Source: an uncultured Spirochaetaceae bacterium
GTDB taxonomy: Bacteria; Spirochaetota; Spirochaetia; Sphaerochaetales; Sphaerochaetaceae
Assembly (NCBI GenBank): GCA_944389145.1
Contig: CALXLH010000020.1
Coordinates: 1 to 64,000, forward strand
Length of the DNA stretch: 64,000 bases
Direction: 5' to 3'
The notes below the pieces were generated by a model. That model ran no database searches and was not told the origin of the DNA. It saw nothing but the letters and a program-made list of their open reading frames with translations. Below, piece after piece: positions 52,476 to 54,925 of this stretch. Position 1 is the first letter of the stretch. Every line of letters begins with the position of its first letter. Made by a program: the position numbers and the translations under genes.

Positions 52476-53105
52476 TCATCTCATATAGGGATTCGTCTCC
52501 CTTTCGTATCCTATCGTGGTCATTCCACCATGTCCTGGCAGTACCCGCGTATCCGGGGGAAGGCTGCCTAATGCCTTCAGCGATGAGAGTATCATGCCGT
52601 AGTCACCGCCGAGGTCGGTTCTTCCTATGCCTCCCTGGAAGAGCGTATCGCCAGAGAATAGCACTCCATCCTTCTCCGAATAGATGGAGACGGATCCATT
52701 GGTATGTCCCGGAGTCTCCATGATTGAGAAGGGGCCTTCATAGCATCCGTATCCCATTGCGTCATCAGGCAGGCGCACATCCTTTACATCCTCAAGGAAT
52801 GCCTGATCGAATGAGAGGAGCATCTTCCTCAGCTTCCTTCCATCATCCTCAAGATACGGCATGTCCTTCTCTGAAAGATATATCAGGATGGATGGGAATG
52901 CCTCTCTGAGGGATGCGAGTCCGAATACATGGTCATGATGGCCATGTGTCAGCAGCACGCACTCCGGCACGAGGGAGCTTTCCCTGAGATCATCGATCAC
53001 CGCGTCTGCTGGATACGGGGCGTCTATGATCACGGCGCGCCCATCCTCCTCGACGATGTAGCAGTTGGTGGCATATGGTCCAAGGGAAAGTGCCTTTATC
53101 CTCAT
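52476..53105 (-). CDS. Metallo-beta-lactamase-fold hydrolase (glyoxalase II-like)
   Basis: A 209-residue di-metal hydrolase. T-H-G-H-H-D-H (residues ~54-60), H-T-N-G near 134, D in F-S-G-D-T-L-F and the final G-H-G-G-M-T-T-I-G complete the metal site. It belongs to the small GloB-like thioesterase group; the substrate could be a thioester such as S-lactoylglutathione or another thiol adduct. Its start overlaps the stop of the upstream RNA-binding gene (TGATG). Confidence 0.92.
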   Translation of the reverse strand: MRIKALSLGPYATNCYIVEEDGRAVIIDAPYPADAVIDDLRESSLVPECVLLTHGHHDHVFGLASLREAFPSILIYLSEKDMPYLEDDGRKLRKMLLSFDQAFLEDVKDVRLPDDAMGYGCYEGPFSIMETPGHTNGSVSIYSEKDGVLFSGDTLFQGGIGRTDLGGDYGMILSSLKALGSLPPDTRVLPGHGGMTTIGYERETNPYMR

Positions 53106-53698
53106 CAGTCCTGATTCTCAGCTTCCTTCGCTCCGCCTTTCTTCTCTGCGAACGAGACAGATGCGGTACGTCCGTTGATATCCATGCCGGAGACCTTCTC
53201 TATGGCCTTCTGGCAGTTTTCCTCACTCATGGTGACGAACGAGTACTTGTCATGGATCCTTATCGCGTAGATATCATCGCGCGTGATGCCAAGCACTCCC
53301 TGCAGGAGCTTCGAAAGATCCTTCGCATAGAGGTGCTTCATCTTGCCCACGTTGATATAGATGGTCTTCGCGCCCTCAGGGATGATGCGTTCCGGCTTCG
53401 GCTCTGCCTTTGCCTTATCCTGGGCCTGGCGTGGCTCTGCCGCCGTCCTTGGCTTTTCCGGCCTGTCTGGCCTTGCTCTTCTCTCGCCTTTCCTCTCCGG
53501 GGCCTTCCTGCCCTCGGCTGCCAGCATCAGGAGGTATGCTGAGAACGCGCTCCTTGTGAAGAACGGAACGCTCTTCCTGATGATTCCCTTGAGCCTCTCA
53601 AGCTCTTCCGGCTGCTCTCTCCTCATGGCTTCGAGGAGGCTGCCGATCCTCTGCTGAAGTTCCTCGTCCGAGAGGCCCTTCATCTCTTCTTTCTCCAT
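53105..53698 (-). CDS. Stand-alone DbpA RNA-binding domain protein
   Basis: A 197-residue protein with a helical N-terminal region (residues ~1-65), a basic low-complexity linker rich in R, K, P, A and E (~68-112), and a C-terminal DbpA-type RRM (I-Y-I-N-V-G-K-M-K-H-L-Y-A-K-D-L, G-I-T-R-D-D-I-Y-A-I-R-I, Y-S-F-V-T-M). In DbpA this domain binds 23S rRNA hairpin 92 next to a DEAD-box helicase; here the helicase is absent. The frame reaches 53845, but the ATG at 53698 follows GGAG. The 5' leader looks structured. Confidence 0.83.
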   Translation of the reverse strand: MEKEEMKGLSDEELQQRIGSLLEAMRREQPEELERLKGIIRKSVPFFTRSAFSAYLLMLAAEGRKAPERKGERRARPDRPEKPRTAAEPRQAQDKAKAEPKPERIIPEGAKTIYINVGKMKHLYAKDLSKLLQGVLGITRDDIYAIRIHDKYSFVTMSEENCQKAIEKVSGMDINGRTASVSFAEKKGGAKEAENQD

Positions 53699-53798
53699 TC
53701 TTTTCTCCATAATCGCCCGATCGGGTTGGAAATATGCCCTAAATGGGTATTGGGCAACCGTGAAGTTTCCAGCAGGAAAGGTCCGGACTATCACGGTC
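53699..53798 (-). promoter_or_regulatory. Structured 5' leader of the DbpA-domain gene
   Basis: On the minus strand the predicted transcript starts near 53798. ACCGTGA (53797-53791) pairs with TCACGGT (53763-53757), enclosing GTCCGGAC and a TTTCC-TGCT-GGAAA hairpin. Further down, GCCC can pair with either of two GGGC stretches, the second close to the Shine-Dalgarno. It may be a cis-regulatory RNA; no known riboswitch class is matched. Confidence 0.4.
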
Positions 53799-53804
53799 AA
53801 TGAA

Positions 53805-53855
53805 AGAATGATTGAATGGTGCTTGTTTGTCAATAAATACCTCATATGTGATACA
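53805..53855. promoter_or_regulatory. Overlapping divergent promoters (DbpA-domain gene and coiled-coil gene)
   Basis: Plus strand: TTGTCA (53827-53832), 17-nt spacer, GATACA (53850-53855). Minus strand: TTGACA (53833-53828), 17-nt spacer, CATTCT (53810-53805). The two -35 boxes occupy the same bases, so both polymerases cannot bind at once. Confidence 0.5.
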
Positions 53856-53863
53856 CTTCAATC

Positions 53864-54925
53864 ATGAGTGCGCGAGAGGAACTGCTGAAGGAGAACGAGG
53901 AGAACGTACGCGAGTGCGAGGACCGGATAGCCGCGCTGATGCTTTCCCTTGGCAGGAAGGGTGTCGAGAGCGCCTCATCCCTTTCCATTTCCGTCGGACA
54001 GCGCCTTCTGTCGGAGTGCTATGACAGGATCGCGGAGCGTAGGAAGGCGGAGGAAAGGCTTTCATCCATAAGAAGCGCATCGGCAGAGCATGAGGGCAGG
54101 CAGGAGAGCCTTGCGGAGAAGGAGCGGGAGCGCGACAGCCTTGGGGATCGCCTTGATACCCTTGAGGCCCAGCTCGGGGCGATCATATATGAGCGATGCT
54201 CATTCTCCCTTCTGGATAAGTCACGCTATGAGCGCGTTTATCATGATATCGAGAAGGACGGGAAGAAGAAGGGCAGCCTTGCCTTGTCCTTGCGCAATGC
54301 GGGCCAGCGGCGGCGATTTGTCCGCTATTCGCGCATCGCGGAAGCAGATGATGCCGCATCCGGACTTGATGGCAGTGCCTTGCAGCTCCTTTCCGAGATC
54401 AGCGATATCAGGAAGGAGCTCGTGAGGCTCGATGGGGAGAGGAAGAGCCTTTCTTCTGTGATCCATTCCAAGCGCCATTCATACCGGGCCATGTCCCATG
54501 GCGGTATCGAGAGGGCGGAGAAGGCCCTCTCGGAGTGCATAAGGCGCGAGAATGAGGCGATGGAGGGCTATGGTTCCCAGCTCTATGACAAAGGAGCCCT
54601 CTGGATCAGCGATAGCACTCCATCTCCCATGCTTTCCGATCTTCAGGCGATACTCAGCGAGAAGCGGCTTCTGGATAACCTTCTTTCTGAGCGTGCGCGG
54701 CTCGGGCGCGAGGCTAAGGCGGATGATCTGAGGACGCTGCTGGAGAGCGAGGAGGGAAAGCTGCGGATCCTCCGCCGCGAGCGTGAGCGCATCGATGGTG
54801 AGATCGCGGAGATCGAGCGTGAGGCAGAGCGGCTTAGAGGGAATATCGAGAAGCTGCAGGGTGCGTCAGAAAGGGGCGGCAGAGGAGAAGCTGACGCGGC
54901 TTCCGCTCACAGGATGGATGAATGA
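53864..54925 (+). CDS. Coiled-coil protein of unknown function
   Basis: A 353-residue cytoplasmic protein, very rich in E, R, K, S and L, with heptad-like coiled coil at ~60-110, ~175-215 and ~285-345. No enzyme motif, signal or membrane segment. There is no Shine-Dalgarno sequence, and the -10 hexamer ends 8 nt before the ATG, so the message should be leaderless or nearly so. The last 60 bases overlap the convergent pseudouridine synthase gene. Function unknown; a structural or scaffold role is possible. Confidence 0.72.
   Translation: MSAREELLKENEENVRECEDRIAALMLSLGRKGVESASSLSISVGQRLLSECYDRIAERRKAEERLSSIRSASAEHEGRQESLAEKERERDSLGDRLDTLEAQLGAIIYERCSFSLLDKSRYERVYHDIEKDGKKKGSLALSLRNAGQRRRFVRYSRIAEADDAASGLDGSALQLLSEISDIRKELVRLDGERKSLSSVIHSKRHSYRAMSHGGIERAEKALSECIRRENEAMEGYGSQLYDKGALWISDSTPSPMLSDLQAILSEKRLLDNLLSERARLGREAKADDLRTLLESEEGKLRILRRERERIDGEIAEIEREAERLRGNIEKLQGASERGGRGEADAASAHRMDE

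Follow-up and report, generated by a model that had tools for sequence, protein, structure and literature searches.

What is the function of the conserved sequence that lies ahead of an orphan RNA-binding-domain gene in a group of uncultured gut spirochaetes, and is it conserved as RNA or as DNA? The question is raised by a 64,000-nucleotide stretch of DNA (here called the window) from a 2.13 Mb genome of 'Candidatus Ornithospirochaeta' (Sphaerochaetaceae). The gene, referred to here as dbpA (53105–53698, minus strand), encodes a protein of 197 amino acids in which Pfam recognises a single domain, the DbpA RNA-binding domain (E 2e-17, residues 112–181). An AlphaFold model made from 15 relatives places three N-terminal helices within residues 11–61, followed by a low-confidence linker and a C-terminal end that resembles an RRM (residues ~110–183), with a mean pLDDT of 72, and the best matches among solved structures are to the E. 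coli DbpA helicase. Judged by its domain, its predicted fold and these structural matches, the product is an RNA-binding protein. Within the RRM, 37 of the 68 columns between residues 110 and 177 are identical across all 15 aligned proteins, and these include proteins from clades that do not have the leader described below. A second possible in-frame ATG of dbpA is present at 53710; the relatives begin at the position equivalent to 53698.

The neighbourhood of the gene is of interest in its own right. Overlapping the end of dbpA is a gene for an MBL-fold hydrolase (52476–53105, minus strand; Pfam Lactamase_B, E 3e-34) that is probably carried on the same transcript. The MBL motif TH.H.D was observed just 3′ of dbpA in 79 of the 79 named loci with enough sequence (L111, which ends too early, was excluded), a stable and unexplained pairing of an RRM gene with an MBL gene. 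Named relatives of the dbpA-like protein belong to 'Candidatus Ornithospirochaeta', to uncultured Spirochaetaceae and to other Sphaerochaetaceae, and searches of plasmid and viral sequences with this protein gave no match. The host genome contains a second DbpA domain, located elsewhere within an open frame of 618 codons that probably encodes a DEAD-box helicase.

Structure of the leader and compensatory change in its outer stem

Of 80 named loci that were fetched, 25 share with the window the same leader after a TTGACA promoter, and we refer to these 26 sequences as type I leaders. The leader of the window covers about 100 nucleotides between the predicted start of transcription and the start codon (53699–53798; this and all leader elements below are on the minus strand). 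It scores 83.4 bits (E 1.1e-14) with R1, a covariance model built from 24 leaders of which the window itself is one. Read from 5′ to 3′, type I leaders comprise a stem with a bulge (P1), an internal motif made of GUCC and GGAAAC, a variable cap, one or two small hairpins and a GGAG ribosome-binding site. P1 has seven base pairs and a single bulge at −2; its 5′ arm, ACCGUGA, lies at 53791–53797 and its 3′ arm, UCACGGU, at 53757–53763, both supported by covariation. A preliminary description, made from the letters of the window, had already pointed to this 7-bp stem (ACCGTGA/TCACGGT), which is indeed present on the minus strand and appears in the minimum-free-energy fold. The inner elements proposed at that time, a GTCCGGAC palindrome and a TTTCC/GGAAA hairpin, can be found in the window, but relatives retain neither the palindrome nor the TTTCC partner and instead keep GUCC pairing with GGAAAC.

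This internal motif is the conserved core of the leader. Its 5′ half (53785–53788) reads GUC in 26 of 26 leaders, with C as the fourth base in 25 and U in one, and its 3′ half, GGAAAC (53765–53770), is invariant in all 26; if the first A is the partner of the U, two A are bulged. The core is best read as a G-C pair followed by a U-A pair, a two-A bulge and two G-C pairs. The P2 cap varies among relatives in both length and sequence. Downstream, the P3 hairpin (UGCCC…GGGCA, 53735–53756) is nearly invariant in its GCCC…GGGC arms, has UACCCAU in the loop in the window's group and varies in spacing from 4 to 17 nt; 96.9% of its cells are paired, and because only one pair shows a double change, P3 is weakly supported. 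The P4 hairpin (CCC-GAUC-GGG, 53716–53725) shows double changes in three of its four pairs in a model-fitted alignment, and is missing in L042 and L044. The ribosome-binding site GGAG (53705–53708) is invariant in the 26 leaders and in the window sits 6 nt before the start codon.

Compensatory change in the outer stem is found strongly among the relatives. The comparison was made on an alignment of 23 leaders that was not fitted to the structure and that omits L038, L046 and L051. There, P1 contains 33 double-change cells, compared with 6.7 after shuffling, and none of 500 shuffles was as high. The same is true of the proportion of paired cells (95.6% vs 81.6% shuffled) and of the covariation score (0.474 vs 0.178 shuffled), each with 0 of 500 as high, and 2 of 500 shuffles reached the observed count of doubly changed pairs (8 vs 3.8 shuffled). 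Versions of the P1 pairing in which the arms are slid against each other are only 24–40% paired. Likewise, for the whole structure in a 24-leader alignment (A3), 92.2% of cells are paired and there are 37 double-change cells vs 8.4 shuffled (0 of 500). The base of P2 also carries compensatory change, together with P1. When the leaders are set in register with the core, the two P1 arms vary together. One P1 pair may serve as an example: over the 26 leaders it is UA in 17, CG in four, AU in three, GC in one and GU in one. Furthermore, RNAalifold recovers P1 unprompted, and parsimony counting along the tree puts both-side changes on 16 branches over the seven P1 pairs (13 when one pair with a non-standard inferred root state is excluded); this count used a topology copied by hand for 25 of the 26 leaders, with the pair type at branch ends unchecked.

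Folding of single sequences is less informative. The folding energy of the window's leader by itself is not striking (z −1.47 and −2.02 in two runs), and in six of the 26 leaders the probability of P1 is 0.06 or lower, so that the thermodynamic prediction and the comparative structure are sometimes at odds. On the comparative evidence, P1 is an RNA structure maintained by compensatory change.

Distribution of the leader and of other dbpA leaders

The two leaders of L046 and L051, which were left out of R1, are found again by the model at E 1e-8 to 1e-9. All genome scans, with R1 and with a second model of P1 and P2 alone (R2), used Infernal's stricter filters. Among 48 genomes of the genus, R1 has exactly one match in 26 and none in the other 22, and every one of these 26 matches lies directly upstream of dbpA (18 placed by position and eight by contig and coordinates compared with the named loci). 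In a phylogeny built from joined DbpA and MBL proteins, the 25 type I copies included fall in a single clade with support 100/100. When R1 was applied to 139 genomes of the order, the sole addition was one genome, G104 (E 0.007), and we take this match to be due to chance, as it is without P1 and the core and lies upstream of an open reading frame that, named by eye, resembles a copper-transport ATPase. With R2, 22 of the 26 type I leaders are recovered, all but those of G018, G025, G029 and G061. Its best other matches (24.2 bits, E 0.0025 and 0.0029) were rejected, being one place in two genomes that is antisense to a coding gene and lacks GGAAAC; weaker R2 matches elsewhere have E values of 0.02 to 0.4.

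A side observation concerns sequence L124, in which positions 1540–1638 of the minus strand contain two dyads like ATACCC…GGG(T)AT upstream of a reading frame that by eye is copper-transport-ATPase-like; these dyads resemble CsoR boxes.

Known families do not account for the leader. At its gathering thresholds, Rfam release 15 identified two tRNAs and nothing else in the window. A permissive Rfam scan of 351 bases gave four hits, all weak and to unrelated families (best E 0.59), and neither ten loci that included five of type I nor ten further loci had an Rfam match. In viral contigs, the pattern AGTCCG-N-CGGAAACTG proved too loose, occurring in at least 120 stretches, and R1 run on 80 of them found nothing better than E 0.075. 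No paper on the type I leader was found in the open-licence literature. By all of these sequence comparisons, the type I leader is a real and new structured mRNA leader of a known kind, specific to one clade and found before dbpA only, once per genome. It adds to the RNAs of uncultured gut spirochaetes a well-supported structure whose internal-loop motif is invariant and which matches nothing in Rfam.

It is also useful to consider what precedes dbpA in relatives from other clades. In another genus of the family, loci L104, L106 and L108 have an unrelated dbpA leader of ~165 nt with a mean column identity of 89%. This leader is present in three of the 139 genomes of the order, has no Rfam match, and contains 36 predicted pairs, three of them with a double change among the three sequences. 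Its CCUCC could pair with either GUGGAG or AGGAG at the ribosome-binding site, an alternation that is a lead only because it comes from three sequences. Bullifex porci and its relatives (L084, L087, L102) have another dbpA leader that by eye looks conserved (GGTATGATTGCA ... TTTGACAATCCGCTTCCTGA) and is not type I. Lastly, in dbpA leaders from other Ornithospirochaeta clades (L054, L056, L058 and L082; L057, L059, L062, L065, L067, L070, L085 and L110), a hairpin loop often reads, by eye, UACCCAU, UAUCCAU or UUCCCAU, as in the P3 of the window.

Promoters, the divergent gene and the ribosome-binding site

The dbpA promoter is predicted from a −35 element TTGACA (53828–53833, minus strand) and, 17 bp away, a −10 element CATTCT (53805–53810, minus strand). 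TTGACA is present in all 26 leaders, although this count is not independent because the loci were cut at that word, and most relatives have TATNCT at 17–18 bp. Given the −35, the 17-bp spacer and the −10, transcription is predicted to start about 7 nt further on, at the first bases of P1. A consensus promoter scan called no promoter at this position.

On the plus strand, TTGTCA (53827–53832) overlaps the dbpA −35, and TACACT (53852–53857), a possible −10, lies 19 bp from it. These elements precede a divergent coiled-coil-like gene (53864–54925, plus strand) that has no Pfam or NCBIfam match. Homologues of this gene were found in 18 of the 40 genomes searched, that is, in 18 of 24 from the genus and in none of the 16 others. 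It adjoins dbpA in the opposite orientation in 16 of these 18 genomes, and is on another contig in G005 and G006. From the window, it had been suggested that the two promoters share their −35 bases and compete. This is partly borne out. The overlap is present, and arises because a TTGACAA word necessarily reads TTGTCAA on the opposite strand; a candidate opposite −10 (TAnACT-like, also TACATT and TAAAAT) at 16–17 bp exists in 16 of the 26 leaders, the spacing in the window is 19 bp and the other nine have no such element at 16–17 bp. Built-in competition is possible, though it is not conserved across the whole clade. Moreover, the available parts of a study of E. coli (PMC12825309) describe five bidirectional-promoter cases in which basal activity is too low for competition, so competition at the dbpA promoter is not to be assumed. 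As in those E. coli promoters (PMC12825309, as far as the available parts describe them), two divergent promoters share bases, so that polymerases would exclude each other; they differ in that the E. coli promoters share a −10, whereas the overlap at dbpA is at the −35 and does not extend to all relatives.

A second regulatory reading of the window was a translational switch in which GCCC would pair with either of two GGGC stretches, the second of them next to the ribosome-binding site. This did not survive comparison with the relatives: the second helix has no double changes and 72.9% of its cells paired, which is not above shuffles, and its fourth pair fails in 14 of 24 sequences. An alternative pairing of the 3′ arm of P3 with the 5′ arm of P4 was also tried and rejected, having no double changes and no signal; P4 covaries with itself. 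Across the 26 leaders no clade-wide hiding of the ribosome-binding site was found; the partners of this site vary by species, with a mean unpaired probability of 0.44. In the window's minimum-free-energy fold, UUUCCA (53727–53732, minus strand) is able to pair with the ribosome-binding site. It is the top partner there (0.41), as it is in L035 (0.50) and, in the form UUUCAAC, in L051 (0.79), an arrangement that is not general. A role as terminator or attenuator was likewise rejected: a scan of the window's minus strand found no terminator-like site in the leader, and in L052 the hairpin that the terminator scan picks out lies within P1/P2 and not in P3.

Possible roles of the leader

We consider the likeliest role of the type I leader, with a probability of roughly 0.4, to be that of a candidate site where the DbpA-RRM protein would bind its own mRNA and regulate it. 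The proposal, which the preliminary description had also entertained, can be laid out as follows. The dbpA-mbl mRNA of one Ornithospirochaeta clade would start with the conserved structured leader; the DbpA-type RRM protein, when in excess over its main RNA target, would bind this leader, with the P1 core as the putative site; and the bound protein would lower the expression of its own operon, much as ribosomal proteins do via their leaders. Such binding would act on ribosome loading or on the decay of the mRNA, not on a GCCC/GGGC switch. Because the structured leader is specific to one gene and that gene encodes an RNA-binding domain, autoregulation stays plausible. Specificity for a single gene is as expected of an autogenous site, and conservation of the core exceeds what a plain stem would need. 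The protein itself offers a further correlation. Residue 127 of the RRM is Asp in 26 of 26 members of the type I clade vs nine of 54 other relatives, and residue 130 is Lys or Arg in 26 of 26 vs one of 54 (L082), both positions being in helix 1 of the RRM; since a single clade is concerned, this association is a correlation only. Several findings weigh against autoregulation. Ornithospirochaeta clades without a type I leader have a well-conserved RRM too, L086 and L088 carry only a short leader of ~33 nt, no clade-wide way of covering the ribosome-binding site was found, and folding of single sequences gives P1 a low probability in the six leaders mentioned above.

Autogenous leaders commonly, though not always, resemble the main RNA target of their protein, and partial 23S sequences were compared with the type I leader. 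The core model reached at best 10.1 bits on the partial sequences L130–L132 (from G000, G004 and G015, at contig ends) and 7.1 bits on L133; hairpin 92 is present only in L130 and L133. No 9-mer is common to the window's leader and L130, the fragment of 23S from the same genome; with L133 (3035 bases) the leader has one 10-mer in common, which comes from the unconserved P2 cap and is taken as chance. By the core model and k-mer comparison of these partial 23S sequences, no likeness of the leader to hairpin 92 or to other 23S rRNA is convincing, which may weigh against autoregulation.

The main rival explanation needs no specific binder. Protective stems at the 5′ terminus, of the ompA type, occur on bacterial mRNAs, and P1, at the predicted first nucleotide, might likewise shield the mRNA from 5′-dependent decay. 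P1 does start at, or a few nucleotides from, the predicted start in type I leaders, and some of the leaders that we label type III also begin with a stem near the start. That of L062 is one example; the type III stem has seven pairs in six sequences, two with a double change, and a slightly unfavourable covariation term, all for few sequences. Another type III leader, that of L070, has a small hairpin near the start and a folding energy that is not unusual. The dbpA leader resembles ompA-type stems in having a stem at the predicted 5′ end of the mRNA, and differs from them in its invariant internal motif and further hairpins. A plain stem requires neither GUCC/GGAAAC, invariant in 26 of 26 leaders but for one C-to-U change, nor P4, and L086 and L088 manage without such a stem. 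We regard simple protection as possible but somewhat doubtful.

The leader could instead be the target of a different RNA-binding protein, such as a ribosomal protein, CsrA or the protein with the second DbpA domain, whose 618-codon open frame is in the same genome. Nothing links any such protein to the motif, and for CsrA in particular the GGA of the leader lies within a stem, unlike typical CsrA sites; this explanation is an unlikely one. A small-molecule or ion riboswitch for the operon, with the MBL-fold hydrolase and its substrate as the metabolic clue, appears improbable. Internal loops that are asymmetric and invariant are a typical mark of ligand pockets, and an MBL gene comes next after dbpA in 79 of 79 loci, but the leader serves one operon per genome in one clade only, its motif is small, no alternating expression platform was found and there is no Rfam match. 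It is very hard to credit that what is conserved here is a DNA operator or a promoter spacer and not RNA: P3 is a DNA palindrome in part of the clade, and the weak R1 match at G104 has a similar ATACCC-N5-GGGTAT dyad, reminiscent of CsoR-type operators, but the arms of P1 vary freely yet keep pairing, G-U pairs included, the spacing of P3 ranges from 4 to 17 nt, and G104 is one weak match (E 0.007, one genome) in 139 genomes, without P1 and the core.

Autoregulation by the DbpA-type RRM protein can be placed beside two better-known systems. In the DEAD-box helicases DbpA and YxiN, the RRM binds hairpin 92 of 23S rRNA, according to the parts of the source available (PMC7973409). The orphan protein has the same type of RRM; unlike those helicases, it is without a helicase core, and its leader is without detectable likeness to hairpin 92 in the partial 23S sequences compared. 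The leader bears on whether a DbpA-type RRM without a helicase can regulate mRNA.

The second comparison is with ribosomal protein S15, for which, in the portions of two reports at hand (PMC4137082, PMC4684408), one and the same protein is served by RNA structures that differ between bacterial groups. On that precedent, limited as it is to those portions, conservation of the RRM in clades without a type I leader is not a fatal objection to autoregulation. It is tempting to extend the idea to the whole family: the several unrelated dbpA-mbl leaders across Sphaerochaetaceae clades might each be an independently evolved site for self-control by a helicase-free DbpA-type RRM, which would make this an S15-like system outside the ribosomal proteins, and the P1 core a new RRM-recognised motif. 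We hesitate to press this extension, which we think doubtful. Should a DbpA-type RRM without a helicase prove to regulate mRNA, several different leaders on one operon would amount to a natural experiment in which one RNA-binding protein gains new RNA sites. The dbpA product differs from S15 in that it is not a known ribosomal protein, no rRNA mimicry was detected by the comparison with partial 23S sequences, and binding is here a proposal. The resemblance, as far as the available portions of those reports describe the S15 leaders (PMC4137082, PMC4684408), lies in the architecture of the two systems: in both, the mRNA of a conserved RNA-binding protein carries a structured leader of its own, and different clades carry different leaders.
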